A DNA stretch of 59,364 bases from a virus, in IMG/VR virus record IMGVR_UViG_3300042543_000383, positions 1-59,364 of that record; one strand, written 5' to 3'. The notes below the pieces were generated by a model. It was not told the DNA's origin, searched no databases, and saw only the letters and a list, made by a program, of their open reading frames with translations. The position numbers and the translations under genes were made by a program. Below are positions 2,911-49,736 of this stretch, piece after piece. Each line of letters opens with the position of its first letter. Position 1 is the first letter of the stretch.

Positions 2911-2961
2911 TCTAACCCCCACGGTGTCGAGGCCTTCGGGTCGCCACGCCGTGGTTCTTTC

Positions 2962-3066: not shown

Positions 3067-3151
3067 CCGGGGCAGCAGTTGGGCCCCACATACGCTCATC
3101 CGGCACGACCGGAAAGAGTAACGGCGTCATCCGCAAGGGTGGCGCCAGCAT

Positions 3152-3227
3152 GGGGCAGCAAGCCGCAAGGCGCGGCTCCCGATTCCAAATCGGGGAGAGC
3201 TTGGTTCGATCCCAAGGCGTCCCGCCA
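3152..3227 (+). tRNA. Probable tRNA-Trp (anticodon CCA)
   Basis: The element is 76 bases long, the canonical length. The D stem AGCC/GGCT encloses a loop with the AAGG bases. The anticodon stem CCCGA/TCGGG carries the loop TTCCAAA with CCA at 3185-3187. The T arm CTTGG-TTCGATC-CCAAG is perfect. The 3' end reads GCGTCCC-G-CCA, so CCA is encoded and the discriminator is G73, as in bacterial tRNA-Trp. Weak points are two mismatches at the base of the acceptor (pairs 6-67 and 7-66) and no U8. It lies just upstream of a connector gene. Confidence 0.55.
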
Positions 3228-3251
3228 ATCAACCGCCAGCGAGGCAAGACC

Positions 3252-3746: not shown

Positions 3747-3748
3747 TC

Positions 3749-4132: not shown

Positions 4133-4136
4133 GCCC

Positions 4137-5105: not shown

Positions 5106-5149
5106 ACAACACATCTGCCTCGCATCCGGCGAGCACTGGAGACTCCTGA

Positions 5150-5719: not shown

Positions 5720-7236
5720 GTGGACCGTTCGATACGGGCGTCTCCGCCTCGTACAAGGTTCCCGGGTTCTTCGGGAAGATCATCTTCGGCGCGGGCACTG
5801 TCAGTGCGGGCGCTGTTCGGCTTGTCTGTCTCCTGGTCGGCATGAAGACCAGCGCTGGAAGCCTCACGGTGGACAGTCAGATCGCCGACTGCACCAGCCA
5901 GGAAGAGGCAGACTCCTACGCGGGCGCCGGCTCGCAACTGGCGCGCATGGCGTACTCCGCGCTTCAGGTGCCGACGGTCAAGCTCAAGATGGCAGCCGTC
6001 ACCGAGCCCGGCGGCGGCAGCGCTGCAACCGTCACCATCGTCCTCACTGGCACCATCACCGCGGCTGGTGAGACCCACATCCGCATCGCAGGCAAGAGCT
6101 ACAAGACGGCCTTCCTCGCGACCGACACCCTGGACACCATCGGCGCAGCGGTCGTCGCCAAGATTTCCTCGGACACCCGCTGCCCGTTCTCGGCGGCCTA
6201 CAACAGCAGCACCGACACCATCACCCTGACGTGCCGAAACAAGGGCACGCAGGGGCGAGACTGGATCGTCTACTGGGTGACCGATGACATCGCTGCATCC
6301 GGCCTCATCGGCACGATTGCCGGCAGCTCTACCGTCAACACTGGCGGTGTTCGAGCCGGCGCAGCATCGTCCGGCACCGGTTCAGAGGACGTTACCTCGC
6401 TCCTCACCAAGCTCCTGACGAACCGCTACGCTCGCGTCGCTGTCGGTCACAACGACACCACGAACGCTGCGCTCTGGGAGGCCCACGTCAACGCCAAGGC
6501 GCTTGCCACCACGATGCTGTACGACCAACTGGTCTTCGGCTTCAACGGCACCTACGCCAACGCCATCAGCCTCGCAGCCACGACCCTCAACGCGCACCGC
6601 GCGCAAGTCGTTTGGCATCGCAACAGCGAAAGCCACCCCTGCGAGATCGCGGCCTACGTGGCAGCGAAGCGCTCGGTGGTGGAGCAGGCGACTTGGGTGC
6701 CGGACTACGACGGCCTGGAACTCACCCCCATCGCGCCTCAGGCGTTCGATGCGGACAAGCCCACGCCGGCCGAGCAAGACGCCGCCCTCAACAACGGCGT
6801 CACACCCTGCACCACGGTCAACGGCGTTGCGGTCTGCGTCCGCGCCATCACCACGTACTGCCTGAACGGCACTGCGCAGGACGAGCGCTGCCTCGACATC
6901 GGCGATGCGGTCTGCCCGGACCAGGCGATGATCGATCTGCAACTCTTCTGGTCCACGGAGTTCCGTCCGGCCAATCCCTACGTCGGTCCCGACCCGGCGG
7001 AGGGAGACCCCGAGCCCCCCAGCGGCGTTGCCTTCCCCAAGCTCTGGAACGGCAAGGTCGTTCAGAAGCTGGAGGAGTGGGGCCGCGCCGGATGGATGAA
7101 GTTCCCGCCGACCGGCATCTGGGCGCCGACGTCGACCTTCGTTGAAGCCTCCGAGGCCATTGCGACGGTCATCCCTCTCCCCGTTCGACGCCTGCAACAC
7201 CGCACCGACCAGGTGATGCGCCAGACCGCGAGCTGA
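5716..7236 (+). CDS. Contractile tail sheath protein (Mu gpL-like)
   Basis: At 506 residues this is the usual size for a Mu-type sheath. Its C-terminal half carries sheath features: a QLVFGFNG..ANAISLAATTLNAHRAQVVWHR stretch, a YVAAKRSVVEQATWVPDYDG stretch, and a terminal WAPTSTFVEASEAIATVIPLPVR. The insert around residues 95-215 is beta-rich and probably surface-exposed. The tube gene lies just downstream. This gene shows that the phage has a contractile tail. Confidence 0.9.
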   Translation: MSGPFDTGVSASYKVPGFFGKIIFGAGTVSAGAVRLVCLLVGMKTSAGSLTVDSQIADCTSQEEADSYAGAGSQLARMAYSALQVPTVKLKMAAVTEPGGGSAATVTIVLTGTITAAGETHIRIAGKSYKTAFLATDTLDTIGAAVVAKISSDTRCPFSAAYNSSTDTITLTCRNKGTQGRDWIVYWVTDDIAASGLIGTIAGSSTVNTGGVRAGAASSGTGSEDVTSLLTKLLTNRYARVAVGHNDTTNAALWEAHVNAKALATTMLYDQLVFGFNGTYANAISLAATTLNAHRAQVVWHRNSESHPCEIAAYVAAKRSVVEQATWVPDYDGLELTPIAPQAFDADKPTPAEQDAALNNGVTPCTTVNGVAVCVRAITTYCLNGTAQDERCLDIGDAVCPDQAMIDLQLFWSTEFRPANPYVGPDPAEGDPEPPSGVAFPKLWNGKVVQKLEEWGRAGWMKFPPTGIWAPTSTFVEASEAIATVIPLPVRRLQHRTDQVMRQTAS

Positions 7237-7258
7237 GAGGCGCGCGCAACCATCAACC

Positions 7259-7298
7259 CCGCCCTGCTGGCATGAGTCGGCAGGGCGGTCCTGTTTTT
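7259..7298 (+). terminator. Intrinsic terminator between sheath and tube genes
   Basis: A 9-bp perfect stem (CCGCCCTGC at 7259-7267 with GCAGGGCGG at 7280-7288) is followed by TCCTGTTTTT. It has the form of a Rho-independent terminator inside an otherwise continuous structural operon. Partial termination could set the ratio of sheath and upstream mRNA to tube mRNA. Confidence 0.75.
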
Positions 7299-7335
7299 CG
7301 CGCGGTCTCTTTCCGCGCCCGAAAGGACCACGCCA

Positions 7336-7719
7336 ATGGCAGCCCCCCGGATTCGCTCGCTCGCCTTCTACTACAAGGGCAAGAAGGCCGTCACCGTCAA
7401 CAAGTTCTCCATCAAGTACAACCTCAACCGCTCGGCGCAGTTCGGGCATGACGAGTACCTCGCCCACGCCGAAGGCATCGGCATGGTGCAGATCACATGC
7501 ACCGAAGTCGTCACCGTCTCCGGCTCCACCACGGTCGACGACCTGGAGAACATCCTGCTGAAGGGCGGCCGAGTGAAGTGCTCCGCCATCATCGGCGGTC
7601 GCTTCCAAGAGTTCGAGCTGACGGTGACCGACCTGAACTACGAGTCTGACTCGCAGGCTGGTACGGCCACCGGCAACATCACCCTCGAAGGCGCGCTGCC
7701 CGCTGGCGTGTCCGGCTAA
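7336..7719 (+). CDS. Tail tube protein (Mu gpM-like)
   Basis: A 127-residue, beta-rich protein directly after the sheath gene. It begins with RIRSLAFYYKGKKAVTVNKF and ends with a run of strands (FELTVTDLNYESDSQAGTATGNITLEG), consistent with the two-sheet tube fold of contractile tails. It would polymerise inside the sheath. Its stop shares an A with the next ATG (TAATG). Confidence 0.8.
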   Translation: MAAPRIRSLAFYYKGKKAVTVNKFSIKYNLNRSAQFGHDEYLAHAEGIGMVQITCTEVVTVSGSTTVDDLENILLKGGRVKCSAIIGGRFQEFELTVTDLNYESDSQAGTATGNITLEGALPAGVSG

Positions 7720-8363
7720 TGGCTACGCTGAAGCAAGTGTCCGAGCGCTTCGCCCACCTTCAGGGCGGAAAGCGGCAACGCTTCACCGTAGAGCTTCCGC
7801 TGGATGCTGTTTACGACGAAGAGAAGGCCGTCTACACGGGCCAGACCATCAAGGTAGACGTTACCCCGCTGGACATGCAGGAGGAGATCCTGGTGCTCGC
7901 GGGGGCCCGGCAATTCGCGGCAGACAACGGTGGCAAGGAAGACGACCCTGGCGACCCCATCTACGAGAAGGGGGCAAGGCTCAATACTTTGCTTCTGGCG
8001 TGCGTCGACCACGAGAGCCCGAAGGATGCACCGGTTCCGTTCTTCTCTTCGGTCTCCGAGATACTCCAGCAGAAGCTCCTGTCACCCGACCACCTAGCCA
8101 TTCTGCACGAAGCGCAGATGACGCATCAGGACCAATGCTCCCCCCGCAAGCTGGATATTCCGGCTAGCCAGTACATCGCGACAGTGGTGCACATGGCGGG
8201 AGGGAACCTCCCTTTTTTTCTCAGGCTGCGGCCAGGCATGCAGTGGAGCTTGGTGCATACTATGGCCAAGCAGCTTCTAGACTCACAAGCGCTCAAGTCG
8301 CTCTATTCCTTGCCCTCCGACACGACGACGCCGGATACGAGCGAGCCTTCGGTGAGTGAGTGA
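7719..8363 (+). CDS. Tail assembly chaperone (first), with slippery heptamer
   Basis: The 214-residue product lies between the tube and tape-measure genes, where tail assembly chaperones sit. At 8213-8219 the in-frame heptamer T-TTT-TTT follows a GGGAGG/CCTCCC hairpin that also offers a Shine-Dalgarno-like GGAGGG. A -1 slip there gives an alternative C-terminus of nearly the same length that stops at 8357-8359, immediately before the next start. The frame-0 tail is Ser/Thr-rich, while the -1 tail looks more like a folded helix. The normal product may therefore be either. Confidence 0.65.
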   Translation: MATLKQVSERFAHLQGGKRQRFTVELPLDAVYDEEKAVYTGQTIKVDVTPLDMQEEILVLAGARQFAADNGGKEDDPGDPIYEKGARLNTLLLACVDHESPKDAPVPFFSSVSEILQQKLLSPDHLAILHEAQMTHQDQCSPRKLDIPASQYIATVVHMAGGNLPFFLRLRPGMQWSLVHTMAKQLLDSQALKSLYSLPSDTTTPDTSEPSVSE

Positions 8364-8929
8364 GCACGTTCTCCCAACTGGCCAAGGAGGTCATGGAGCC
8401 GCCGATGACCATCACTGTCCCAAAGAACGTCTGGGCTCACACGTGGGAAGAGCGACCGAAGACGGACCTCCTCGCCGGGATGCGACTCATCTCGGACGCT
8501 GAGGTTCAGGCCGGACAACATCTCGCCCGCAAGTTCGCTACGGATCTTCACCCTGGCGACACGATGCGGGACCGAGAGCTTTGGGTGATGGCCTACGAGG
8601 ACGCACTCATCCGCCACGTAGCCGCACGCTCACTATGCGACCCGCACAACGTTGATGAGCCGTTTCGGGCAATCGCCCCGGCGCCTGAGGACATCATGGC
8701 GTCGAAGGACTATGTGCAGCCGGATGGCGTTCGATTCCTGTTCGACGCATACGAGCGCCTGCGCATCGAGTTGGACCCGACGCAGCCACTGCTTGAAGAC
8801 GGGCAGTTGATGGACCTGGTCGATGCGTTCGACCTTCACATCGACGAACTGTCACCGACGAAGGCCGGACGCATTCGAAGGCTCCTCTCCTACTGCCTCT
8901 CCGAACTGACAGAGCAAACCAATGGCTGA
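8360..8929 (+). CDS. Tail assembly protein (second)
   Basis: The 189-residue product starts with GTG within a (GTGA)3 run that overlaps the upstream stop, so it is coupled to the first chaperone. It is mostly helical and acidic, with no membrane segment. Its position just before the tape measure suggests the second chaperone of the G/GT-type pair, although it is not in continuous frame with the first. It overlaps the tape-measure start by 8 bases. Confidence 0.55.
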   Translation: MSTFSQLAKEVMEPPMTITVPKNVWAHTWEERPKTDLLAGMRLISDAEVQAGQHLARKFATDLHPGDTMRDRELWVMAYEDALIRHVAARSLCDPHNVDEPFRAIAPAPEDIMASKDYVQPDGVRFLFDAYERLRIELDPTQPLLEDGQLMDLVDAFDLHIDELSPTKAGRIRRLLSYCLSELTEQTNG

Positions 8930-11147
8930 GATTCGCATCAAGATCGGCGCGTCGGTAGACCGCGGTCTTGAGAACGCGTTCCGGCCCCTGGAAGAGTCAG
9001 CAAAGCGCGCGAAGCGAACGCTCCGTACTGAGTTTGACGCGAGCGCCAAAGAGCAACTGAAGGCCCAACAGAAGGCCGACAGGGAGATGGCCAAGTCCGC
9101 GCGAGACGCGGCGCGAGAGCAGGCCAAGGCGGCCAGGGAAGCGGCAGCCCAGAAGACCAAGGCGGAGCGGGACGCAGCGAAGGAAGCCGCAAGGCTGGAC
9201 CGTGAGCGAGTCCGCACGGCAGAGCGGGCAGAGCGAGACATCGTTCGGGCCAAGGAGAAGGCCGAGCGCGAGAAGGCTGAACTCACTAAGAAGGCCCAGC
9301 GCGAGGAAGAGCGCGCGCAAAGGGATGCTGTCCGCGCCGCAGAGAAGGCCGCGAAGGACCAAGCACGAGCCATCGCCAGGCAGCAACGGGAGCAGATTCG
9401 CGCGACTCATCAGGCGGAGCGCGACCATCGTAGACAGTCCCGCGCAGACCACTACGACCGGATGCTTGCGTCTCGCAACGTCGGCCGCACCGTCGACAAC
9501 ATCGTCACTCCTGCCGCTCGCCTCGGGGGCAAGGGACTATCCTTTGCAAAGGGGGTCTTGAGCGACGTTGCCCAGGGCGCGGGCGCAGACTTCTCGCTGG
9601 CATCTCACGTCCAGAAGAACGTGAGCTTGGAGAAGAACGCAACAGACCTCACCAACGCCGGCTACATGCCAGGGGAAAAGGGACAGGCCGGTATACGGCA
9701 AGACCCGCAAGCCCTCATCAGGGATGTCCGCAAGGCCGCTGATGCCACTGCCACCGATGCCAACGTGGCCATGGAAGGCCTTCAGAAGTTCGTCGCCAAG
9801 ACAGGCGACCTTCAGACCGGACGCGAAATCATCCAAGACTTGGCGAAGTACTCTCGCGCAACGGGCGCTGAGTTGGATGACATGGCCGACGCTGCCGGCG
9901 ACGTTGCGAGCGCTCTAGGCGAAACGGACAACAAGGGTGAGAAGGTCAAGGCCGTCATGAAGGCCATCGCTGCCCAAGGCAAAGTGGGCGCGGTCGAGAT
10001 CAAGGACCTCGCCACTCAGATGGCGAAGATCGGCGCATCAGCAACTCAGTTCACCGGTGACGGTGCTGAGAACGTTGCGAAGATGGCTGCCATCTCCCAG
10101 GCCGCTCGCCAGAAGGGCGGTGCCGCAAGCGCCACCCAGGCCGCGCAGTCGACCATGGGCTTCATGGCGACGTTCTCCAAAGCAGCCAGGCAGAACCAGT
10201 TCAAGGCGTACGGGGTCAACATCCGCGCTGCTGACGGCAAGGTTGCGGACCCAAAACAGATCATCATGGATTCGATTGCCGCGGCGGCTTCAGAGAAGCA
10301 CGGCGGCATGGCCAACTTCGACAAGAACATGGGCAAGATGTTCATGGACTCTTCGTCGAAGCGAGCGACGCGCGGGTTCGAGGCGGTCTACAAGGACACC
10401 AAGGGAACGCACGAGCAGAAGATGGAAGCGGTGTCGAAGTACTTCGACAAGCTGGCCAATGCGACCATGAGCGAGACGGAGGTGATGGAATCATTCACCC
10501 GCTCGATGTCGACGACCGAAGCGCAAGCCCAGTTGGTCAACAACCAACTGTCCGCTGCTGCCCAAGAGTTGCAGAACAGCCTCCGACCAGCGATGGCCGG
10601 AATGGCCCCAGTGATGATTCAGGGGACGAAGGCCGTCACCGACTGGATCGGGATGCTGACAGGCATCAAGGCCCAGATGTCGCAGGCGGCCGGTTACCGT
10701 ACGTCGAACGAGTCCGGCAACGCGCGCCGACTTCTTGAAGGCGACACGTCCAATGGTGTTGTTGGGCAAAACTACGATGTAGCCGTCAGCAAGCAGAAGG
10801 CGCTACAGGACGCAATCGCGGCCAAGGAAACCGAGCACAAGAAGAACATCCTCCAGGACGAGGGCAAGCGGAAGCTCAGCCTCGCAAACCCAATGGGTGA
10901 TGTTGGCGCGGCACTGTTCGACAAGTTCACTGGTCGCACTGAAGCGCGAAAGAAGAACCTCGACACGGAGCGCGAGGACCTTCGCCTGATGCGCGAAGAG
11001 AACGACAAGATGACGAAAGCCCTCGAAGGCGTTCGCCGCGGTCTCCTCGAAGGGACGCTGAAGGTGGAGGTTGTGAACCAGCCGACGCCAGGACCTCCGG
11101 GCGCACCAACTAGCGGACGTTCGACGCAGACGCAGACCACACCATGA
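8922..11147 (+). CDS. Tape measure protein
   Basis: A 741-residue protein, the longest of the tail module. Residues about 25-170 are an extreme Ala/Lys/Arg/Glu coiled coil built on ADREMAKSARDAAREQAKAA-like heptads. Residues 230-420 (DATATDANVAMEGLQKFVAK, ELDDMADAAGDVASALGETDN) match the helical core of phage tape-measure proteins. No peptidase or transglycosylase domain is evident. It sets tail length and is threaded inside the tube. Its end overlaps the next ATG by 4 bases. Confidence 0.85.
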   Translation: MAEIRIKIGASVDRGLENAFRPLEESAKRAKRTLRTEFDASAKEQLKAQQKADREMAKSARDAAREQAKAAREAAAQKTKAERDAAKEAARLDRERVRTAERAERDIVRAKEKAEREKAELTKKAQREEERAQRDAVRAAEKAAKDQARAIARQQREQIRATHQAERDHRRQSRADHYDRMLASRNVGRTVDNIVTPAARLGGKGLSFAKGVLSDVAQGAGADFSLASHVQKNVSLEKNATDLTNAGYMPGEKGQAGIRQDPQALIRDVRKAADATATDANVAMEGLQKFVAKTGDLQTGREIIQDLAKYSRATGAELDDMADAAGDVASALGETDNKGEKVKAVMKAIAAQGKVGAVEIKDLATQMAKIGASATQFTGDGAENVAKMAAISQAARQKGGAASATQAAQSTMGFMATFSKAARQNQFKAYGVNIRAADGKVADPKQIIMDSIAAAASEKHGGMANFDKNMGKMFMDSSSKRATRGFEAVYKDTKGTHEQKMEAVSKYFDKLANATMSETEVMESFTRSMSTTEAQAQLVNNQLSAAAQELQNSLRPAMAGMAPVMIQGTKAVTDWIGMLTGIKAQMSQAAGYRTSNESGNARRLLEGDTSNGVVGQNYDVAVSKQKALQDAIAAKETEHKKNILQDEGKRKLSLANPMGDVGAALFDKFTGRTEARKKNLDTEREDLRLMREENDKMTKALEGVRRGLLEGTLKVEVVNQPTPGPPGAPTSGRSTQTQTTP

Positions 11148-41081: not shown

Positions 41082-41453
41082 TCATGTGCCCGATGCCTCG
41101 CCCCATTCAGTGACCACCCCAACCTTGACACCGGCCGCTCTGGCCTTGCTGACCATGTCCGCAGTCCCGACCCCGCCAGGAAACGCGACTACGATGTCTG
41201 GCTTCTCTCGCTCCAGCATCAGCGCGTTGCGGATGGGTCCTGCTGCCCGACCGTGCGTCTTCCAGTCGGCAGGGTAGGCGACGCACTGGTGTCCGTTCTC
41301 CCGCGCCCAGCGGGCAGCCAGCGCGTCAGCGCCAGTGGCTCCGCCGTGGACGATGCGGAGGTCACCGACGAAGGCGTGGAGCATGTTCAGCGTGTCTCTG
41401 ACGCGGTACCAGTCTGAGTAGTCGCGTCCGCCGCAAACGAGGATGGTGGTCAC
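41082..41453 (-). CDS. SLOG-fold nucleotide-binding protein (YspA/DUF2493-like)
   Basis: The 123-residue product begins with TILVCGGRDYSDWYRV, followed by IVHGGATGADALAARWA and VVAFPGGVGTADMV. These are the standard motifs of YspA/DUF2493 SLOG proteins, a Rossmann-like fold that binds nucleotides. It overlaps the CysH-like gene by 4 bases and is the last gene of the operon. SLOG proteins occur in several defence and nucleotide-signalling systems. Its link with type IV-B here is from context. Confidence 0.8.
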   Translation of the reverse strand: MTTILVCGGRDYSDWYRVRDTLNMLHAFVGDLRIVHGGATGADALAARWARENGHQCVAYPADWKTHGRAAGPIRNALMLEREKPDIVVAFPGGVGTADMVSKARAAGVKVGVVTEWGEASGT

Positions 41454-42199
41454 CGGTTCACGTCCCGTTCCCGCGCTGCAAGCGCGTCAGTCAACTCGTC
41501 CGAATAATACGCGCGCTCCCACGCGCGTCGCCCATGCCCGGTCCCTCGGTCCCCTCCCAGCGACCCAACGCGGATGTAGTTCCGGTCGTACATGCCGCCT
41601 TGGGTGCATGCGTACGCGGGATGCAACGGCAGCCCATGGGCATGAATGAACGGGAACACGTGAAGCGCCACCTTCCAGTGCCCGATTGGGGCGCAGGTGT
41701 TCTCCGTGGTGAGTCCGTAGTGCGCCGTTCGAAGGCGCCTGACCGCAGACTCTTGGGCGCGCACACCCGAGATGTGGCGCTTCCCGAACATGCGCTCGGC
41801 TTGCGCGAAACCCTCGGATGACGTGAGCCCCTTCTTCGCGGTACGAGCCTCGACCTCGTGATAGTTGGCGGTCGGATGCATCGCGAGAAATGCGTCCCGA
41901 ACCAAGACGCAATCTGGGTTCTCACGATCATCGACGCGCACCCAGACGAGAGGAACATGGATCCCGTGGGTCAACGCGATGTGCGCCGTCACCACGGAGT
42001 CCTTGCCCCAACTCACCCCGAGGTAACCGCGCCTGCCATCAGGGCCGGCATCAAGGAACGTTCGCATCTCGTGAGCTGCCTTGCGAGCAAGCACATCAAG
42101 AGTCGGCCGCATCCTCTTTGCCTCAAGCGCATCGGTGCGCTCATAGATGGCCCACTGCTCCAAATCGCGTGGCGTATGGCGCGGACTGGCTATCAGCAC
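41450..42199 (-). CDS. CysH-like (PAPS reductase family) protein of a type IV-B-like locus
   Basis: The 249-residue product carries the PP-loop SWGKDS at residues 63-68, the PAPS-reductase/ATP-pyrophosphatase signature. GVRAQESAVRRLR, near residue 145, matches the GxRxxES..R motif of the family. The C-terminal ECGLH of true PAPS reductases is absent, so sulfonucleotide reduction is unlikely. A cysH-like gene beside csf genes is the known hallmark of type IV-B CRISPR-Cas. It overlaps csf3 by 7 bases. An ATP-dependent nucleotide modification is possible, but its role is unknown in the field. Confidence 0.85.
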   Translation of the reverse strand: MLIASPRHTPRDLEQWAIYERTDALEAKRMRPTLDVLARKAAHEMRTFLDAGPDGRRGYLGVSWGKDSVVTAHIALTHGIHVPLVWVRVDDRENPDCVLVRDAFLAMHPTANYHEVEARTAKKGLTSSEGFAQAERMFGKRHISGVRAQESAVRRLRTAHYGLTTENTCAPIGHWKVALHVFPFIHAHGLPLHPAYACTQGGMYDRNYIRVGSLGGDRGTGHGRRAWERAYYSDELTDALAARERDVNR

Positions 42200-42828
42200 G
42201 CAGTGGCCTCCTCACGATGTTTCTGCCAGTACGGAGGCGCCAGAACGCGCCGTTCGATGCGATGCTCTCCCAGTCCCTCCCAGTCGAGCGGAAGCGGTCT
42301 GAGTGGCCGCCCAGCGCGAAGAACGGGGAAGCCCGGCCACGCTTCGATCGGCTCAACCACCCACCGATCCACACGGCCGAGACCGACGCCGCGCTTCTTC
42401 CCGAGGTGAGTGACGAGCGAGAGGATGTCCGTCACCGCGTCGATGTCCCCGATGGCATAGAACGTCATCAGATCGCCATGCAGGTGCAGAGTCTCGGCGG
42501 GGATGCGGAAGCCCTTGGACAGGCCGCCCTTTGGGTTGACGCTCATCTTGGTCTTCCCGAGCATCTGCGCCTCCAGCATCGGGAAGCGCTTGTTGATGAA
42601 CCGCTTCTCGTGCAGCTCGACACTGAACTGCCCCGTCGACGCGAGGTAGATGCCGCGCTCTCGCGAGATGGGGATCTGAATGTCAACGAGAGGACCGAAC
42701 CCCGGAGGGGGGAGCGCGTCGCGCACGGCAATGGCTGCCATGAGCAACGCGTCCAGTGCAATGCTCGCATGAGGAAGCATCACGGAACCGCGCAGGTGTG
42801 CGCGAGCGACGAAGGGACCCATGGTCAC
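42193..42828 (-). CDS. csf3: Csf3 (Cas5-like) subunit
   Basis: A 211-residue RAMP-type protein, the usual Csf3 size. Features include KTKMSVNPKGGLSKGFRIPAE (residues about 93-113) and the glycine-rich LGKKRGVGLGRVDRWVVEP near residue 155. The latter is a GxGxG-type loop typical of Cas5/Csf3 proteins that cap the guide 5' end. The start is GTG 42828, overlapping csf2; an ATG at 42822 is an alternative. It lies between csf2 and the CysH-like gene. Confidence 0.8.
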   Translation of the reverse strand: MTMGPFVARAHLRGSVMLPHASIALDALLMAAIAVRDALPPPGFGPLVDIQIPISRERGIYLASTGQFSVELHEKRFINKRFPMLEAQMLGKTKMSVNPKGGLSKGFRIPAETLHLHGDLMTFYAIGDIDAVTDILSLVTHLGKKRGVGLGRVDRWVVEPIEAWPGFPVLRAGRPLRPLPLDWEGLGEHRIERRVLAPPYWQKHREEATAC

Positions 42829-43832
42829 GCGTCCACCTCGGACAGAAACTTGGCGACCTTCTCTTTCCGCTCGCTCACATGCGAGAAGAAGAGGGAGCCG
42901 ATCTTCGGCGCCAACGCTCCAACGTCCAGGTTCTCCGGCGCCTCACGAGGGCGACGAACCGCGATCTGCTTTGCGATGATCGGACGGATGCGCCCGTGCC
43001 CGGTCGCGCGTTTCCCCCCGACGCGAGCATCGCGAAGGAAGGCGCCAACCATCGTGTTGAACGTGTCCCGCTCAAGCTCCGTGTGGACCGTCGCAGTGAC
43101 CGACCAGTAGAACAGTGCGCCGGAGACAACGGTCTCATGGTTGCGAGGAAGCATCGTGCTCTTGGACGAGTCCGCAATGACGACGTCGCCGACTTCCTTC
43201 CCGTGTTCGGACGCAAGCAGTCGCCGCTCGATGCTCAGCCCTCCGTCCGTCAGAAGCTTGCGCTTCCCAGGGTCCAGGCTCGGGTCCATGCGAACGCGCA
43301 TCACCTCTTCGACGTGACCGCGTGCAGATGAGAGTTTGACCCCGTGCTCCTTCAGCCATTCGTTGACCCACTCCGGCATCCGGTGGGCAGTCTCGTCGCA
43401 GATCAAGTCCGCCGCATCCACTTGGACCTTCCCAGGGATCGCGCGGTTCTGGGCGCAGCCTCCGAGGAGTCCTAGGGGAGGGCAGAGATCGATCATGACA
43501 GAGTAGTCCGACAACTTCACGGACCCTTCCTGCGAGCCAGATATCATCCCGCCAGCGAAGAGAAGTCGCAGAGCGGCCTCGCCAAGCGCGGGGTTTTCCA
43601 GCATCCCGGCCGCATCAAGAAGCGCGTAAGCGCCGGCCTCGCGCAGACCGTGGCGCATCGTGTCTCCGGTGATGATCGGTACATGTGCAAAGGAGCCATC
43701 GGGCAGACGGCGCTTCTCGCGCATCACGAGAGACGTGTTGCCGATGCTCTCCGATGCATGGGCAATTGGCGTAAGGGCCTCAAGGATGAAATCGTAACGA
43801 ACCACTTCGTGAACCTTCTTCGTCTCGCTCAT
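42825..43832 (-). CDS. csf2: Csf2 (Cas7-like) backbone subunit
   Basis: The 335-residue product starts at ATG 43832; codons further upstream belong to the overlapping cas11 region. Its opening FILEALTPIAHASESIGNTS, then VPIITGDTMRHGLREAG, is characteristic of Cas7/Csf2. A Gly-rich AGGMISGSQEG loop and VGGKRATGHGRIRPII near residue 280 fit the RRM core. Multiple copies would form the backbone of the effector along a guide RNA. Confidence 0.85.
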   Translation of the reverse strand: MSETKKVHEVVRYDFILEALTPIAHASESIGNTSLVMREKRRLPDGSFAHVPIITGDTMRHGLREAGAYALLDAAGMLENPALGEAALRLLFAGGMISGSQEGSVKLSDYSVMIDLCPPLGLLGGCAQNRAIPGKVQVDAADLICDETAHRMPEWVNEWLKEHGVKLSSARGHVEEVMRVRMDPSLDPGKRKLLTDGGLSIERRLLASEHGKEVGDVVIADSSKSTMLPRNHETVVSGALFYWSVTATVHTELERDTFNTMVGAFLRDARVGGKRATGHGRIRPIIAKQIAVRRPREAPENLDVGALAPKIGSLFFSHVSERKEKVAKFLSEVDA

Positions 43833-44245
43833 TGTGCCGCTTCCTCTCGTGCTGCCTGGGCAGCTTCCTTGCGTTGTTCGGCGATGCCACGGGCCATCGC
43901 AATCAGGTAGCCAAACTCCCTTTCGATCAAGTCGAGCCATGCGCGGGAGCAGTTGTTCTCTCGGACGAAGTCCGCGAGATCACGAGAAGAGCGAGAGCTG
44001 TCCACTCGCAGCGCCCCCAACTGAAGCGTTCGAACCATCTTGGTCGTCCACTCCTCTACCGATTCGCTCTGCCGAGATGCCGCCAGCATCCGGCTCTGCA
44101 ACTGATCCCAGTGCTTCAGGACGTTGCACCCAGGCGTCCCCAGGTACGCGCTCCGAAGCTCCAGCAGAAGCTCCACTGTCAGCGTCCGCAGACGCTCTTT
44201 CTTTTCCTCGTTCACGTTTCGGTCCCTTCTTCTTGGTCGGCCCAT
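43829..44245 (-). CDS. cas11: Cas11-like small subunit
   Basis: A 138-residue, almost entirely helical protein (LTVELLLELRSAYLGTPGCNVLKHW, then VEEWTTKMVRTLQLGALR). Size, helicity and position between csf1 and csf2 fit the type IV-B small subunit. The first ATG is at 44245, with a GTG at 44215 as an alternative. The gene overlaps the 3' end of csf1 by up to 266 bases in another frame and csf2 by 4 bases. Expected to form the belly filament of the effector. Confidence 0.7.
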   Translation of the reverse strand: MGRPRRRDRNVNEEKKERLRTLTVELLLELRSAYLGTPGCNVLKHWDQLQSRMLAASRQSESVEEWTTKMVRTLQLGALRVDSSRSSRDLADFVRENNCSRAWLDLIEREFGYLIAMARGIAEQRKEAAQAAREEAAQ

Positions 44246-44990
44246 CAGCCTTCGATTTCGTCGTCTTCGCCGCGGCCTTCTTTGCCGCCTTCTCTTGTTT
44301 CTCCGCTTCCATCCTTTCGGCCACTGCGGCCTCGTCACGTTGCGCCAGCCAGATGGCCAACTCAAACCACTGCCCACCACGCCTAAAGCCGTGCTTGGTC
44401 TCGAACGCGTGAAGCTTCGCCCCGCACAACTGCCACGCGCGCGAGCCGAGAGCCCCAGACAGAATCTCCTCCTTCGTTGCGCCCATCGTCAGCAGATCGG
44501 CGATGTCGTCCAGCATTGACCAGCCTTCAGCATCGCGAGGCAACTCGACGATGGCCTCCTCGAACAGGACCGCACCACCGGCCTGTCCAGGCGCGTTGAT
44601 GGGGGTCCACGGGATCAGGTGCTTCTTGCCGCTGTCCGCGATGGCGGCGAACCATGGGGCCTCGTGGGTGCGGCGAATGAAGTCTCGGATGGCTGGCTTC
44701 TGCCCCTTGTTCACGCGGACGTGAGAGGAGCCTTCCACCAGGTGCGTCCACATGCGCTCAGTGTCGGGAGGTTTGCCGGCCATGACGTGGACACATGACT
44801 CGCAGACGTAGCCGCTCTCTGCGCAGCGGACGCGGTTCTGGCCTGTAAAGTTTGCGCCGGCCCACTTGTGACGCTCCACCCCTCGCGTCGCGTCACCGCC
44901 GCAAACCCAACAATGGAACGCTTCCATGTCTCGGCACATGGCGTTTGGCTTGAGCCCGAGAATCTTGTGGATGATCTGGCTAGGGCTCAC
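43980..44990 (-). CDS. csf1: Csf1 large subunit with disordered tail ending QLSLF
   Basis: The 336-residue product starts at GTG 44990 in a GTGA overlap. Its N-terminus carries the Csf1-type zinc finger Cys27-x2-Cys30 and Cys63-x2-Cys66 (FHCWVCGGDATRG and YVCESCVHV). Residues about 75-225 form the main domain (HVRVNKGQKPAIRDFI, then GALGSRAWQLCGAKLHAFE). Residues 225-330 are Lys/Ala/Ser-rich and probably disordered, ending QLSLFS. QLSLF matches the bacterial beta-clamp-binding consensus, and a clamp gene lies upstream in the operon. The tail is encoded by bases shared with cas11. Confidence 0.8.
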   Translation of the reverse strand: MSPSQIIHKILGLKPNAMCRDMEAFHCWVCGGDATRGVERHKWAGANFTGQNRVRCAESGYVCESCVHVMAGKPPDTERMWTHLVEGSSHVRVNKGQKPAIRDFIRRTHEAPWFAAIADSGKKHLIPWTPINAPGQAGGAVLFEEAIVELPRDAEGWSMLDDIADLLTMGATKEEILSGALGSRAWQLCGAKLHAFETKHGFRRGGQWFELAIWLAQRDEAAVAERMEAEKQEKAAKKAAAKTTKSKADGPTKKKGPKRERGKERASADADSGASAGASERVPGDAWVQRPEALGSVAEPDAGGISAERIGRGVDDQDGSNASVGGAASGQLSLFS

Positions 44991-45925
44991 GGAACCTCCG
45001 AGACACGAATGCGCCCAAAGCCAAACGCGGTGCGCCCTCCAAAGCCGGTACGTGCTGCGACTTCAAGAAGCCACCGGGCTGGAGCGTTTGCCTCGACCAC
45101 GCAATGCCCCTCCCAGCCTGAAACGGTGCCGTACTTGCCGCCGACCTCTACCCTGGCGACCCTCGTATCGACCTCAGACGCTTCGACGCGGATCAGGTCG
45201 TCCGTCTTCAGGTGTTCGAGAGAGAAACGCTGAAGCCAAGCTCCGGCGAGTGTGTTGAGCAGCGCGACTGATGTTGGCTTCTCGTGGCTCTTGGTGCGCC
45301 CATCCGTTGTCATGACGACAGGGGTGATGGTGTCGATACGGACGCGCTTCCTGCCCCTAGCAATGCCGCGCGGCGCCTTGATTCGGAAGGCCTGTCCAAA
45401 CTTGAACTTCGATGGATGCCCGTACAGTGGACAGTCGACAGTCTTGCCGGCCAATGAGGCGCCAGCATCGTGCCACCAGTGGACCGCCCAACCGCTCTGA
45501 TACGGGAACAGCGTCCACAACGGAAAGCGAGGCATGTGCCCCATGTCGAGGATGTTGGTCAGTGCGCCATGAAGGCCCCGGGTGTTTCGCAACTCAATGG
45601 GCCACTTTGGCGACGGGTAGACACTGAAGGCCATTGATGCGCCCGGCAGGTACGTGTCGAACGGAGGGGCGCCAGCAAGCCATGGTTTGCGGGTGGAGCA
45701 GGCTCGGTTTGCCTCTGCCCACTTGCGGTTCCGCTCCCTGTCCTTCTCGACGTAGGAAGGCGATGCTCTCCGTGCACGGTCCCGCTCCCGCTCCCGTTCC
45801 TTCCTGCACTCTTCAGAGCAGAACTGCGTCATCCAAGGGTTGGCCGTTTGGTACACCGACCGGCAACGTTTGCACTCTGCTTCGTACCGCTCACGCTCTG
45901 CTGCGTTCATCAACTCACACCTCAC
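44987..45925 (-). CDS. Zinc-finger Cas6-like RAMP protein
   Basis: A 312-residue protein, start in ATGA overlap at 45925 (ATG 45910 also possible). It begins with a treble-clef-like zinc finger (Cys18, Cys21, Cys36, Cys40), then an Arg/Glu-rich helix. The rest reads as a RAMP fold: GLHGALTNILDMG near residue 118 and the glycine-rich loop TGFGGRTAFGFGRIRV at the C-terminus, as in Cas6. Catalytic residues cannot be assigned by eye. Its immediate coupling to csf1 suggests crRNA binding or processing. It could instead be another RAMP subunit. Confidence 0.6.
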   Translation of the reverse strand: MRCELMNAAERERYEAECKRCRSVYQTANPWMTQFCSEECRKERERERDRARRASPSYVEKDRERNRKWAEANRACSTRKPWLAGAPPFDTYLPGASMAFSVYPSPKWPIELRNTRGLHGALTNILDMGHMPRFPLWTLFPYQSGWAVHWWHDAGASLAGKTVDCPLYGHPSKFKFGQAFRIKAPRGIARGRKRVRIDTITPVVMTTDGRTKSHEKPTSVALLNTLAGAWLQRFSLEHLKTDDLIRVEASEVDTRVARVEVGGKYGTVSGWEGHCVVEANAPARWLLEVAARTGFGGRTAFGFGRIRVSEVP

Positions 45926-46281
45926 CCATTCCGATGCGACCGCGTCTCGTTGTAGGCGCTCTTGATCAGCACCGCGCGACCGATGTCGACGCCGTTCTCC
46001 TCTGCGGTGTCGAGCGCACGGATGATGATGTCAGCCAGCTCCTCTTCCATGCAGGTGAGGGGCTCAGCCGTCTTCTTGTCGCACGGCTTGTCCAGCATCC
46101 CGCGCCGGTAGGCCTCCCAGAGTTCGGAGACCTCGCCGTGCAGGTTTGCGACCGAGACAGCCATGGGCACCGGTTCGTCGTGGAAGCCTTTCGACCTGGC
46201 GATGCCGTAGACGTGGTTGGCAAGTGAGCGCAGCGAGTCCGCGATGCGCCGGCCTTCGCCGCTGTCTATGTATAGAGTCAT
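45922..46281 (-). CDS. MazG-like nucleotide pyrophosphohydrolase
   Basis: ATG 46281 follows GGAGGGGATGTG. The 119-residue product has NLHGEVSELWEAYR followed by CMEEELADIIIRALDTAEE, the ExxE and ExxD pair of all-alpha NTP pyrophosphatases. It would hydrolyse dNTPs or NTP alarmones. It overlaps both neighbours and lies between a DUF7768-like gene and the CRISPR-type genes. Confidence 0.8.
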   Translation of the reverse strand: MTLYIDSGEGRRIADSLRSLANHVYGIARSKGFHDEPVPMAVSVANLHGEVSELWEAYRRGMLDKPCDKKTAEPLTCMEEELADIIIRALDTAEENGVDIGRAVLIKSAYNETRSHRNG

Positions 46282-46661
46282 CACATCCCCTCCGTCTTCT
46301 TCACCGGCCCCGTCTCCACCAGCGCCATCAGGTCCGCAGGTAACGTTCGGTACTCCACCGCCGTCCCGCGACTGTTCGCCGTATCGACCCCGAGCGCCAT
46401 CCCGCTGCTGATGCCGAAGTCCGTGTAGACCGCCACCAGATCGCACTTGTTGCCCCAGGCAAAGCCCGCGCTGATGCCGAGCGTTCGGTGTTCCTTGTTC
46501 GTGTCGTCCAGCAGTTGTGTGTAGAGCAAGTGCGAAGCCATCGGGGCTTCATTGCGTCGCTCAATGCTGTCGAGGCAGCATAGCCGCGCGTAGTTGATGT
46601 TCTGCTCGAACGTCCTGCCGTTGGCTGGACTCAGCGGACTCTCAATGACCACTAGCTTCAT
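46281..46661 (-). CDS. DUF7768-like / deoxyribosyltransferase-fold protein
   Basis: The 126-residue product starts KLVVIESPLSPANGRTFEQN with LLYTQLLDDTN, then DLVAVYTDFGISSGMALGVD. This matches small Rossmann-like phage proteins related to nucleoside 2-deoxyribosyltransferases (often DUF7768). A nucleotide ligand is likely. Its ATG overlaps the stop of a tiny upstream gene. Confidence 0.65.
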   Translation of the reverse strand: MKLVVIESPLSPANGRTFEQNINYARLCCLDSIERRNEAPMASHLLYTQLLDDTNKEHRTLGISAGFAWGNKCDLVAVYTDFGISSGMALGVDTANSRGTAVEYRTLPADLMALVETGPVKKTEGM

Positions 46662-46813
46662 GACTTCTTGAACTCCTTCTCCTGATGCCGCTTCCTTGCC
46701 CCAGCAATGCGGCACTTCTTCGACTTTGCATGACGGTGCAGCGGCCGATGTGTCCCGACCGCATGCACCACCAACGCGCCACAATTGGCGCAGCGAGCGA
46801 CGTAGCCGCTCAC
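46658..46813 (-). CDS. Tiny zinc-binding protein
   Basis: A 51-residue ORF from GTG 46813, 5 bases after the dnaN stop. It has CANCG near the N-terminus and a later KKCRIAGARKRH, giving a possible Cys2-His/Cys zinc site. It is Lys/Arg-rich. Coupling on both sides (ATGA overlap with the next gene) supports it despite its size. Confidence 0.5.
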   Translation of the reverse strand: MSGYVARCANCGALVVHAVGTHRPLHRHAKSKKCRIAGARKRHQEKEFKKS

Positions 46814-46817
46814 CAGT

Positions 46818-47945
46818 TCAGATCCTCATCGGCATGACGACGCACAAGAAGTCATCGCCAGACTCCGCCTCGGGCGCCACCATCAGCGGGTCGAGTTCCC
46901 CGTTCAGTTTGAGGACCACCTCCTCGCAGGACAGAACGTTGCAGGCGTCGACGATGTATTTGGCGTTGAATCCAACGCTGATGTTCGGTCCGGTGTAGCC
47001 GATGATCAGTTCGTCCGCCCCATCACCATGCTCCGGGCTCTCCGCCTCGATGCGGAGCGTCCCCTTGGAGAAGCGGAACTTGACGCCTCCAGTGCGCTCG
47101 TTCGATGCAACGGAGATCGCCTTGCAAGCCTCAATGAGCGCGAGCCGGTCGACTTCCGCGATGCTGTCGTTCCCCTTCGGGATGACCTGCGAGTATGGCG
47201 GGAACTTCGCGTCCACCAACTTGATGCTGTAGACCATCCCGGCGAAGTCGAAGAACGCGTTGTTGTCTGCGATGGTGACGCGGATGACCGATCCAGCATC
47301 CGCTGCGCTGGCCTCGTCACACATGCGACGGATGTCAGTTGCTCCCTTCAGCGGAAGAAGGAACTCAAAAGCGGTTCCTTCGGAGACGGGGAGGTTCGAC
47401 AACGTCAGACGATGCCCGTCGGTGGAGACCGTTCGCAGGTTGGTGCCATCAGCCTCGAACTTGATCGCGTTCAGGTGGGCCCGCGACTCGTCCACGCCAA
47501 CGCTGGAGATGACTCGACCGATGGCGCGCGACAACGTCACGGCATGGAACTCGCGCGACGCCGTTGTGTTTGCGCCGGCAGCCTTTGCGACGGGCGGGAA
47601 GTCTTCGGCATGGTGGCATGGGAGCCGAAACTTTCGCGCCCCCTTCTCCGCCTTCATCTGGACGGCCTTGTCATCACCGATGATGGTGAGGTTGCCCGAA
47701 GGCATCGCCTTGACGCGAGCTTCCAGATCCTTCGCGCCGATGGCGATGGCCCCGGACTTCGAGACCTTGGCGTCCACGGACCCGGTGACGGATCGGTAGA
47801 GGTCGGTCGCGGTGAAGTGGACCTGTCCATCTTCGCAACGTAGGAGGATGTTCGCGAGCATCGGCATGGTGCTCTTGTGGTCTGCGACAGGCGTTGCCCG
47901 TCGAAGGATCTTGTCGAGGTCGTTGCGTTGAATCGTCACTTCCAT
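46818..47945 (-). CDS. dnaN: DNA polymerase sliding clamp (beta subunit)
   Basis: A 375-residue, full-length beta-clamp homologue. The start at ATG 47945 gives MEVTIQRNDLDKILRRATPV. Canonical features include HRLTLSNLPVSEG-type sequence near residue 170, KFPPYSQVIPKG near 250, and the C-terminal VVMPMRI. Clamp-binding proteins dock in its hydrophobic groove. A phage-encoded clamp could redirect host replication factors. Csf1 downstream in the same operon ends with a clamp-binding-type motif. Confidence 0.92.
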   Translation of the reverse strand: MEVTIQRNDLDKILRRATPVADHKSTMPMLANILLRCEDGQVHFTATDLYRSVTGSVDAKVSKSGAIAIGAKDLEARVKAMPSGNLTIIGDDKAVQMKAEKGARKFRLPCHHAEDFPPVAKAAGANTTASREFHAVTLSRAIGRVISSVGVDESRAHLNAIKFEADGTNLRTVSTDGHRLTLSNLPVSEGTAFEFLLPLKGATDIRRMCDEASAADAGSVIRVTIADNNAFFDFAGMVYSIKLVDAKFPPYSQVIPKGNDSIAEVDRLALIEACKAISVASNERTGGVKFRFSKGTLRIEAESPEHGDGADELIIGYTGPNISVGFNAKYIVDACNVLSCEEVVLKLNGELDPLMVAPEAESGDDFLCVVMPMRI

Positions 47946-48160
47946 TGTCTGTTCTCTCCGTTCGTTCGGGACCCGCCCGACTCGGTTGATGCAATTCGTT
48001 TCTCGATGGCCCGCTGAACAGCCACCACCTTCCACTGAGGGCAGCCGTTGGTGTCCGCGTACTGCCTTGCCCTGGCAACCAGATCGTCGAAGCTCGCGCT
48101 CCCGAGCCAGGCCAGGAACTTGATGTCCGCATCGATCCGGTGATGCTCCCCGCGCCTCAT
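47936..48160 (-). CDS. Small hypothetical protein upstream of dnaN
   Basis: A 74-residue product from ATG 48160 with DADIKFLAWLGSASFDDLVARARQYADTNG, helical, and a basic C-terminus. It overlaps dnaN by 10 bases and the upstream gene by 4. Unknown function. Confidence 0.5.
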   Translation of the reverse strand: MRRGEHHRIDADIKFLAWLGSASFDDLVARARQYADTNGCPQWKVVAVQRAIEKRIASTESGGSRTNGENRQWK

Positions 48161-48360
48161 TGCCCGGACACCTCCCGCCAACCGGCATCGGTCAGCCGGT
48201 AGTAGGTCTTTGGCCCATCGGCGAACTGCACCGTCGCAGTCGCGCACAACCCCCTCAGGACGAGCGCGTCAACCGCATCGGCCTGGGATGGGGTCTCGGG
48301 CATGAAGAGCATGTGGCGGGCCATCTGGCGCAAGCAAGCGGCCTCTGCGTCGATAGCCAT
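48157..48360 (-). CDS. Small winged-helix-like protein
   Basis: The 67-residue product starts at ATG 48360, overlapping the integrase stop by one base, after a GAGGAGG ribosome site. AVDALVLRGLCATATVQFADGPKTYYRLTDAGWREVSG has the shape of a small winged helix. It ends with the recurrent EVSGQ-stop junction. It may be a regulator. Confidence 0.55.
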   Translation of the reverse strand: MAIDAEAACLRQMARHMLFMPETPSQADAVDALVLRGLCATATVQFADGPKTYYRLTDAGWREVSGQ

Positions 48361-49736
48361 CAGCACGCCTCCTCTGCCGCGACATTGGCGCGATGCTCCG
48401 TCACCAATGCGTCGACCGCAGCGGCCAGGTCCAAGCCCTTGCGGGTCGCAAACGGGTCCCGCTCAGCAACAGCCGACAGGTAGGACCCGGATAGGGCCCA
48501 GAGCTTGTCCATCGGCGCGAGATCATTCATGACTGCCCCCGTTTGCAAAACCGTCATACGTGGGTTCGAATCCCATCCACGCCTCTCAATCAATTCAATG
48601 GCTTGGCCCGCATCCTCGCTCACCGGCACGGGCCCTATTCGGACCCTATGTTGCGGGATGGCATCGCTCGGAAGGTCGACACTCGGACCCATCGAGAGAC
48701 CGATGGATCGCGCATAGCGCTCCGTCACCTTCACGGATGAGTGACCAAGAAGATCCTTCACGGCCTCATAGCTCCAAGGCTTCCCATCCCAGGCCCCGGT
48801 CAGTAGGAGCGTTGCGCAGGTGTGGCGGAGATCATGCCATCGGACGCGGCGAGTGATCCCGGCCTTGGCCTTCCAGGCTGCCCAGTCAGCAGCGGCAACG
48901 ATGCGCCCCTTCGGGCGATGCAGTCCGGTGACGCTCGGCAGGACGATGCCTTTGCGTTTGGCCTCTGGCACCGCCAGGATGGCTTGTAGCGCGATGCCGA
49001 ACAGTCGGACCTTCCGCACTCGCCCGCTCTTCGTCGAGACGCCTGGGGTACCGTAGCGGAGCACTACGTGGGGGACCTTGGCGTTGACGTGAACGTCGGA
49101 CCAAAGAAGCGAACGCTCCTCCCCTTGGCGCATCCCGGTTCCGATGGCCAAGCAGACGGCCAAGTCGTTCCCGCTCGCAGCGATCAGCGCAAGCGTCTCC
49201 GCCATATCGAGGGCGGTGCTCTTCTCGTCCGTGCTGCCATGGTCCTTGACCTTGATGCCAAGCGCGACGTTGGTTGCGAGCTTGCCGGCCTCGACTCCGT
49301 AGGAGAGAACAGCGCGCAAGGTGTTGAGCGCGTTGCGCCTGGTCATCGTCGACAGCCCGCGCGCGGAGATGTCCGCCAGCCATTCCCGAATCTGTCCAGC
49401 CGTCAGATCGCGAGCCGGCATCCGCGATGCCTCCCACGGAAGGACGTAGGCGTTCCAGCAAGACCTGAAGCTCTTGATGGCCTTGTACCCATCGCGCTCG
49501 CGCAGGTCGATGCAGGACTCACCAAGGCGCTTCAGGCTGATGCCGCCTCGCGTACACTCGCTCTCCGCTAGCACCGCAAGGATGCCATCGAGAGCCATCT
49601 CCGCCTCTTCGTAGGTCGCAAACGGTGAGCCTTCGATCTCTTCCCTCCGTCCGATGGTGAACGGGAAGCGCGCGCGGTACCGTCCGTCTGCGATCTTGGT
49701 GATGGTGCCAGAGCCCTTCGGCCTTCGCTTCGTCAT
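48360..49736 (-). CDS. int: Tyrosine-family integrase containing attP
   Basis: The 458-residue product has an N-terminal DNA-binding domain (GRYRARFPFTIGRREEIEG), a SAM-like core-binding domain and the catalytic set: Arg in GTGMRQGEE (about residue 202), HDLRH (about 300), LGHSS (about 330) and Tyr in TERYAR (about 340). After the catalytic domain, a roughly 115-residue extension begins with GWDSNPRMTVLQTG, which is the antisense of a tRNA-Cys 3' half. The attachment site therefore lies inside the gene, and integration would replace the C-terminus. Confidence 0.93.
   Translation of the reverse strand: MTKRRPKGSGTITKIADGRYRARFPFTIGRREEIEGSPFATYEEAEMALDGILAVLAESECTRGGISLKRLGESCIDLRERDGYKAIKSFRSCWNAYVLPWEASRMPARDLTAGQIREWLADISARGLSTMTRRNALNTLRAVLSYGVEAGKLATNVALGIKVKDHGSTDEKSTALDMAETLALIAASGNDLAVCLAIGTGMRQGEERSLLWSDVHVNAKVPHVVLRYGTPGVSTKSGRVRKVRLFGIALQAILAVPEAKRKGIVLPSVTGLHRPKGRIVAAADWAAWKAKAGITRRVRWHDLRHTCATLLLTGAWDGKPWSYEAVKDLLGHSSVKVTERYARSIGLSMGPSVDLPSDAIPQHRVRIGPVPVSEDAGQAIELIERRGWDSNPRMTVLQTGAVMNDLAPMDKLWALSGSYLSAVAERDPFATRKGLDLAAAVDALVTEHRANVAAEEAC
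48541..48584 (+). other. attP core: 3' half of tRNA-Cys inside int
   Basis: Read on the + strand, the bases give anticodon-loop TTGCAAA (GCA at 48545-48547) and ACCGT, the T arm GTGGG-TTCGAAT-CCCAT (48560-48576), the acceptor strand CCACGCC and a T discriminator at 48584. GCA with U73 is the tRNA-Cys signature. The 5' half of the tRNA (a GGCGTGG acceptor) is not found upstream, as expected for attP rather than an intact gene. Integration would restore the host tRNA-Cys. Confidence 0.75.

Follow-up and report, generated by a model that had tools for sequence, protein, structure and literature searches.

A type IV-B-like csf operon in a phage contig

The stretch of DNA analysed here, referred to below as the window, is a whole virus contig from IMG/VR (record IMGVR_UViG_3300042543_000383; 59,364 bases), and the subject of this study is a type IV-B-like CRISPR-Cas effector operon that it carries. 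Six genes on the minus strand make up this operon, running from position 45925 down to 41450 in the order cas6, csf1, cas11, csf2, csf3, and cysH. A sequence-only reading, made earlier from the letters and their open reading frames (ORFs), had placed five genes in the range 41450-45925 and overlooked the sixth, at 44987-45925, which encodes Cas6. Its description of the phage setting was borne out: contractile-tail genes (sheath, tape measure, and baseplate hub) lie on the plus strand, and the csf operon sits on the minus strand inside an early-type gene run encoding DnaN, an integrase, exonucleases, and a RecT-like protein. The csf region is collinear, with identical proteins, in two more IMG/VR contigs, G001 (85,451 bp) and G002 (40,129 bp), and the arrangement is therefore not an accident of assembly; a contig break at 41-46 kb, which the sequence-only reading had named as fatal to its claim, is ruled out by the same collinearity.

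Profile searches of the kind which that reading had proposed identified csf1, cas11, csf2, and csf3 in PADLOC, with Pfam accounting for the CysH-like protein, so that the claimed csf1-cas11-csf2-csf3-cysH series stands. On the minus strand, csf1 (43980-44990) encodes a large subunit of 336 amino acids (aa) with a Cys-rich N-terminus and a long tail (Csf1_0_IV, 6.7e-24; six-row alignment); cas11 (43829-44215; GTG start) encodes a small subunit of 128 aa (typeIV_Cas11, 1.1e-5, with a second PADLOC value of 1.7e-5; alignment); csf2 (42825-43832) encodes a Cas7-like backbone protein of 335 aa (Csf2_0_IV, 2.2e-42); and csf3 (42193-42828) encodes a Cas5-like protein of 211 aa (Csf3_0_IV, 4.8e-35). 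The CysH-like protein (41450-42199, minus strand; 249 aa) contains the PP-loop SWGKDS, as had been claimed, matches PAPS_reduct (PF01507; 2.9e-5, 24.6 bits against a cut-off of 22.5), and aligns with the CysH of Skermania phage SPI1 and of plasmid IV-B loci. The csf proteins are divergent, since the NCBIfam scores for Csf1, Csf2, and Csf3 stayed under their curated cut-offs (42.3 of 140, 33.4 of 130, and 45.8 of 140 bits, respectively) and Pfam returned nothing at E<=0.1 for csf1, cas11, csf2, or csf3. Against the PDB, a Csf2 profile of nine proteins had its best match in the Csf2 of 7jhy (6.7e-37), followed by Cas7c (2.4e-26) and by Csf2 chains such as 8rc3 (titled IV-A1; 5.4e-11); we take 7jhy to be the IV-B complex of Mycobacterium sp. 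JS623. These sequence comparisons support a type IV-B-like gene set, and in this the sequence-only reading was right, although its statement that csf plus cysH defines type IV-B is too simple for an operon that also holds a cas6. Membership of these proteins in unrelated RAMP or zinc-finger families was rejected on the PADLOC matches, the Csf2-PDB profile, and the Cas6 fold matches given below.

Four junctions of the operon overlap by only 4 nt (cas6/csf1, cas11/csf2, csf2/csf3) or 7 nt (csf3/cysH), in line with the short overlaps of 4-7 bases described earlier, whereas the overlap of csf1 and cas11 is 236 nt long and out of frame. As to cutting activity, Asp42 of IV-B Csf2 has been compared with the catalytic Asp of Csm3 (PMC7937560; here and below, cited papers are represented by excerpts). 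In 7jhy, Asp42 (residue number by our own count) sits in a four-residue insertion that is absent from the phage Csf2 profile, and because this insertion is missing, Csf2 here is presumably not a target-RNA cutter. No effector nuclease was recognized among the ten operon-region proteins scanned, apart from a weak match of the Cas6 N-terminus to an HNH PHROG. The domain PF13307, which we take as the model for a DinG-type helicase domain, was found in none of the three near-identical contigs, and the same model matched the control in 11 of 14 cases.

The first gene of the operon encodes a predicted Cas6-fold protein

The cas6 gene (44987-45925, minus strand; 312 aa) starts at GTG 45925 or ATG 45910, and its product joins a Cys-containing N-terminal stretch to a Cas6 RAMP domain. 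At the sequence level, the PADLOC Cas6 model matched residues 192-307 at 3.6e-8, and PF01881 passed its cut-off (23.6 against 23 bits). PF10040 scored 23.7 bits with the protein, below its cut-off of 25, and 26.2 in a genome search that placed three of seven contigs above the cut-off, and TIGR01877 remained below its cut-off (32.2 against 58.65). Cas6 sequence profiles run against the PDB gave nothing or one unrelated match. An AlphaFold2 (AF2) model of the RAMP part, built from seven rows, reached a predicted local distance difference test (pLDDT) score of 75.4 and a predicted template modelling (pTM) score of 0.74; an earlier input of three sequences had given a pLDDT of 45.8. When this model was searched against the PDB with Foldseek, 21 of the 24 matches at E<=0.001 were titled Cas6, Cas6-related, or CRISPR RNA-processing endoribonuclease, and the other three were two chains of 3qjj ('RAMP protein') and one of 8fcu (Cascade-transposon complex). 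The match to 6fjw had an E-value of 2.1e-6, a TM-score of about 0.54, and a root-mean-square deviation (rmsd) of 5.7, and VIA-align Z scores were tied among 6fjw (12.9; rmsd 4.5 over 204 residues), the type IV Cas6 6njy (12.4), and 4c8y (12.3). On this model, the first operon gene encodes a protein with a Cas6 fold.

Counted from ATG 45910, His125 (codon 45536-45538, minus strand) is the candidate catalytic histidine and His114 (codon 45569-45571, minus strand) is a second conserved one; both are kept in all 13 homologues that cover the stretch in an alignment of 14 rows. The two lie in the N-terminal half of the domain, a place consistent with that of the catalytic His of Cas6. By the same count, the N-terminus has cysteines at positions 13, 16, 31, and 35 and looks zinc-finger-like by eye, and a Cys-rich N-terminus of this kind occurs in several homologues, not in all.

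Csf1 ends in a consensus clamp-binding motif encoded over cas11

The 3' end of csf1 and the 5' part of cas11 share 236 nt out of frame (43980-44215, minus strand). An assembly error was rejected as the cause of this overlap, which is identical in three contigs and has long counterparts in relatives (236 nt in L042, 251 nt in L025, and 89 nt in L032). The last six residues of Csf1 that are read from it are QLSLFS, in which QLSLF (43986-44000, minus strand; residues 331-335 of 336) runs out of frame over cas11. QLxLF is the consensus for binding the beta sliding clamp, usually found at the C-terminus, and QLSLF is the full form of this consensus (PMC4549789). As judged from its sequence, the C-terminus of Csf1 thus carries a full-consensus beta-clamp-binding motif.

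Among 21 loci of the Csf2 clade described below, a strict motif QL[SD]LF ends Csf1 in 10 and a relaxed one (Q[LM]xL[FW] or QLxLxL) in 14. With six closely related loci (L088, L089, and L092-L095) counted as one, the strict form is found in 5 and the relaxed form in 9 of 16 lineages, and QxxL[FW] in 11 of 16, to which L083 with QLSLSL may be added as a twelfth. We compared these ends with the last 40 residues of all 3,871 six-frame ORFs of at least 100 aa in the 21 contigs: the strict motif was present in 10 of 21 Csf1 versus 0 of 3,850 other ORFs, the relaxed motif in 14 versus 7, and QxxL[FW] in 16 versus 15. When codons were shuffled with the Cas11 protein fixed (20,000 shuffles at each of 21 loci, with codons drawn from local usage), the strict motif arose in <=0.065% and the relaxed motif in <=0.34% of shuffles at any locus.

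These numbers bear on whether the motif is a mere by-product, with the csf1 tail a functionless read-through of an alternative frame lying open over cas11. High G+C content keeps alternative frames open here, and an open frame of such length would arise by chance at 0.3-42% depending on the locus. Taken by itself, the open frame says little, and it is the motif that carries weight. Its rarity in shuffles and in other ORF tails makes a by-product very improbable. The kinship of the loci is not part of the shuffle model, yet the Csf2 of the four clade relatives that were aligned is only 49-57% identical to that of the window.

Outside the clade, the motif is absent from three plasmid Csf1 and from the Csf1 of phage SPI1, and 3 of 13 other virus loci show a similar end (L027, QLSMF, by eye; L033, QGDLF; and L098, QLLLF, in one of its two Csf1). 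The last of these loci (160-6705 of an 18.7-kb virus contig) holds one csf2, two csf1, three csf3, and two cysH homologues in tandem.

Distribution of cas6 in the Csf2 clade

In a tree of 34 Csf2 from virus contigs, phage SPI1, plasmids, and one contig of a metagenome-assembled genome (MAG), the window falls in a 20-row clade with support of 99/100, made up of 19 virus contigs and the MAG contig. The tree tool warned of long branches (L033-L036) and of rows with few filled positions, none of which belongs to this clade. A cas6 homologue accompanies csf in 14 of the 20 clade members (15 with the doubtful L091) and in none of the 14 rows outside. The presence of cas6 needs four changes on the Csf2 tree, a number as low as which was seen in none of 500 shuffles, a result that near-copies among the rows help. 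Cas6 profiles matched in four of four members scanned (PADLOC, E<=0.01; PF10040, E<=0.05). Elsewhere, the plasmid IV-B control loci have no Cas6, with the order csf1-cas11-csf2-csf3-cysH in two of three, and tblastn with Cas6 found no match in phage records.

We regard it as highly unlikely that this is an ordinary IV-B system in which the Cas6-like gene is a passenger with no part in its action. Such a passenger would fit the absence of a detected cas6 in five of 20 clade members, both near csf and in a contig-wide search run without its own positive control, and it would fit two damaged copies: in L026 (the contig of L081), cas6 is split into two overlapping ORFs in different frames (9584-10542), and L091 (G023; 8409-8864) has at most an N-terminal, Cys-rich Cas6 stretch, which the whole-contig search (13 records, G023 included, all empty) did not detect. 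Both copies appear to reflect decay or assembly errors. Against a passenger, a full-length or split cas6 is found in 10 lineages and at three positions (ahead of csf1, between csf3 and cysH, and after cysH), in every case among the csf genes or immediately next to them.

Several further loci deserve mention. In Skermania phage SPI1 (KR011061.1; 32,609-36,242), ORFs 40-44, annotated as hypothetical, correspond to csf1, cas11, csf2, csf3, and cysH, of which tblastn found csf2, csf3, and cysH, and csf1 and cas11 were recognized from where they lie and from alignments; no Cas6 was detected with this set. The csf profiles were built from rows that included SPI1 and the three plasmids, and strong scores there are no independent test. 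In L025/L087 (G003), csf1-cas11-csf2-csf3 is followed by a methyltransferase-like gene, and neither cysH (near csf) nor cas6 was detected; its Csf1 keeps a clamp motif, QLDLF. The MAG contig, L069, is the only match in a cellular genome and resembles phage DNA by eye, and between its cas6 and cysH lies a small gene that looks cupin-like by eye (7452-7853).

CRISPR arrays and the question of a crRNA sponge

A search for arrays with at least three repeats was positive in G018 alone among 23 contigs and also recovered the known array of the control L038; degenerate arrays could escape such a search, as could any at the unassembled ends of contigs that may not be complete. A two-copy scan of the window gave two repeat pairs, at 14,063 and 30,818, which we read as repeats within genes. 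A hidden array feeding Cas6 was rejected, as the sole array that this search found among the 23 clade contigs adjoins a Cas12-like gene. This array, in G018 (L084; 46,961 bp), has six 37-nt repeats (290-685 of the contig) with a GTGATC/GATCAC hairpin in the repeat, and it likely belongs to the Cas12-like gene (9898-11895 of L084; 665 aa; PADLOC Cas12u1, 6.6e-45; Cas12f). Array and gene lie about 2 kb downstream of cysH, placing a class 1 and a class 2 CRISPR system next to each other in a phage, and no Cas6 was detected in G018. The control L038, an 11,164-bp virus contig of a distant lineage, has csf1-csf2-csf3-cysH (5093-8330) followed by an 11-repeat array (32-nt repeat; 9284-9974), which is unusual for IV-B.

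The main rival to the interpretation that we favour below is an RNA sponge or anti-CRISPR, in which Cas6 and the Csf proteins capture host CRISPR RNAs (crRNAs) or pre-crRNAs and starve host immunity, with the clamp motif playing a minor part. A sponge function of IV-B has been raised in the literature (PMC7937560, PMC8175902). The phage has no array of its own, its operon-region proteins have no recognized effector nuclease beyond the weak HNH match, and its Csf2 does not have the insertion that holds Asp42 in 7jhy, all of which would suit a sponge. It leaves unexplained, however, the retention of a consensus clamp motif at the end of Csf1, in a frame overprinted on another gene, among phages that have diverged from one another, and we consider a sponge unlikely.

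The phage DnaN and the genomic neighbourhood

A beta sliding clamp is encoded by the window itself. The dnaN gene (46818-47945, minus strand; 375 aa; TIGR00663, 225 bits against 137.65) lies upstream of the csf operon on the same strand, and its product is a possible partner of the Csf1 tail, going by sequence. Closer to the operon, a MazG-like gene (45922-46281, minus strand; phrog_3301 pyrophosphatase, 1.9e-22) adjoins cas6 upstream, and we treat it as a neighbour whose membership in the system is not claimed. Just before it is a gene matching a nucleoside 2-deoxyribosyltransferase PHROG (46281-46784), and a YspA/SLOG-family gene (41082-41453) directly follows cysH on the other side.

The sequence-only reading had offered recruitment for replication control as one use of the set, an idea that gains unexpected support from the consensus clamp-binding motif on Csf1. 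Here, Csf1 would bind the clamp (phage or host DnaN) so that the complex regulates or blocks the replisome for replication control or host takeover, and the bound RNA would be structural and not a guide. In keeping with this idea, the csf genes follow on from dnaN, exonuclease, and RecT genes in a run that is all on one strand, and the block that holds csf, mazG, and dnaN (41,408-48,624, or about 41.4-48.6 kb) differs from G001 at one position, with neighbouring genes compared differing by 0.2-8%, most by 3-4%. Two further blocks (22.2-28.6 and 31.5-39.8 kb) are equally clean between the window and G001; we read all of them as ordinary mosaic recombination among related phages, and the identity of the csf block as a sign of a csf-dnaN cassette was rejected on this ground. 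General recombination in place of a csf-dnaN linkage, the want of a recognized dnaN in most relatives, and a conserved Cas6 that points to specific RNA processing together make replication control quite improbable.

Regarding the remaining genome, a terminase (phrog_2) was matched in 13 of the 21 contigs of the clade group, including G001 and not the window, and is weak evidence alone, as the same model also matches 11 of 14 control genomes. Rfam searches of the window and of the part of G001 beyond 40 kb gave no match.

A proposed clamp-tethered effector using guide RNA from outside

Considering the gene set, the Cas6, and the Csf1 tail together, we tentatively favour, at a little less than even chances, an array-less phage IV-B-like effector that uses its own Cas6 to take up guide RNA from outside, is clamp-tethered at replication forks, and blocks competing replicons. 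The anatomy (gene set, Cas6 fold, and motif) is well supported, and from it we infer the guide source, the target, clamp binding, and the effect. In this proposal, Cas6 would bind and trim hairpin RNA for which the phage itself has no array, the likeliest substrate being CRISPR transcripts made by the host or by some other element, and Csf2, Cas11, Csf3, and Csf1 would assemble on the trimmed RNA. The Csf1 tail would then tether the complex to sliding clamps, the DnaN of the phage itself here and the host clamp in most relatives, and such tethering would concentrate the complex at replication forks. There it would block the replication or expression of guide-matching DNA without cutting it, with competition against phages or plasmids that share the cell as the main use, and CysH may modify the bound nucleic acid.

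Several of these steps have a basis in the locus or in related systems. Possession of a dedicated Cas6 suggests that this variant is selective in the RNA it takes up, and the guides would come from the host or from other elements because the phage has no array of its own; CRISPR-associated transposons have been reported to bind host crRNAs via Cas6 (PMC11656645). Action at forks is suggested by the clamp motif together with the behaviour of type IV-A1 ribonucleoproteins, which were found near replication forks whether or not a target plasmid was present and were suspected in that study of contacting the replication machinery (PMC11551745). A wider version of the proposal, in which a clamp-riding effector polices all replicating DNA in the cell, draws foreign guides through its own Cas6, and halts the forks of competitors, seems doubtful to us.

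A number of observations weigh against the clamp-tethered effector. The strict motif is absent from 11 of the 21 loci, of which L081 (QGWLPGF) and L069 (QLGIPGI) have only degenerate forms and L079 and L082 have nothing similar. A dnaN gene was found in only four of 23 contigs (G000, G001, G029, below the cut-off, and G031, outside the clade), and most relatives would therefore need the host clamp. Five of the 20 clade members (L082, L084, L085, L087, and L090) had no detectable cas6 near csf or contig-wide, and the sixth case is doubtful. Array scans of the window, of the 85-kb G001, and of 40,000 of the 40,129 bases of G002 were all negative. Residues 11-51 of Cas6 weakly match an HNH-endonuclease PHROG (4.6e-4), which probably reflects a shared zinc-binding element, and an additional activity of the N-terminus is not excluded. 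Finally, an IV-B complex in E. coli bound heterogeneous RNA, and crRNAs supplied to it were not enriched (PMC7937560).

Comparison with known systems

Type IV systems in phages and prophages were already known (PMC10848311, PMC11656645), and IV-B in viruses as such is not new. IV-B has been described as lacking a crRNA processing enzyme (PMC8175902) and as generally encoding no Cas6, with 97.8% of its operons having no CRISPR array (PMC7937560). In the excerpted literature, we found neither a phage IV-B with Cas6 nor a clamp motif on Csf1, and earlier surveys or their supplements may mention such loci. The RNA cargo and the targets of IV-B complexes are regarded as open questions (PMC7937560, PMC8175902, PMC11656645), of which an operon with its own Cas6 makes the first testable, while the Csf1 motif does so for the second by pointing to DnaN as the partner and to the fork as the place. 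The motif could also explain in molecular terms why type IV complexes sit near forks, and the Csf1 tail could exemplify a functional peptide that arose when one cas gene was overprinted on another.

Among described systems, type IV-B (Mycobacterium sp. JS623; plasmid loci, e.g., Xylanimonas pXCEL01) shares with the window the order csf1-cas11-csf2-csf3, a cysH-like gene, and the want of an array, whereas the window has its own Cas6, a Csf1 tail that is overprinted on cas11 and ends in a clamp-binding motif, and a place in a separate Csf2 clade (99/100). The Fuxivirus IV-B is likewise a virus-borne set with a CysH-like protein, but it belongs to an archaeal (Bathyarchaeia) virus and has a two-repeat mini-array, and 'cas6' does not occur in the main text of its description as excerpted (PMC10848311). 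Type IV-A (DinG, Cas6/Csf5, and array; P. oleovorans IV-A1) resembles the window in having a Cas6, with the type IV Cas6 6njy among the tied best folds, and differs in that the Csf2 of the window is nearer to IV-B, Cas11 and CysH are present, and neither an array nor, in the three near-identical contigs, a DinG-type helicase domain was found. With the Cas6 endoribonucleases 6fjw, 6njy, and 4c8y, the predicted Cas6 has in common the RAMP fold, a Gly-rich C-terminal stretch, and a conserved His in the N-terminal half, at 12-14% identity and with an extra Cys-rich N-terminus in several members. Lastly, clamp-binding transposases (IS1634 and others; PMC4549789) also carry a C-terminal QLxLF on a protein of a mobile element, whereas here the motif lies on a CRISPR effector subunit.

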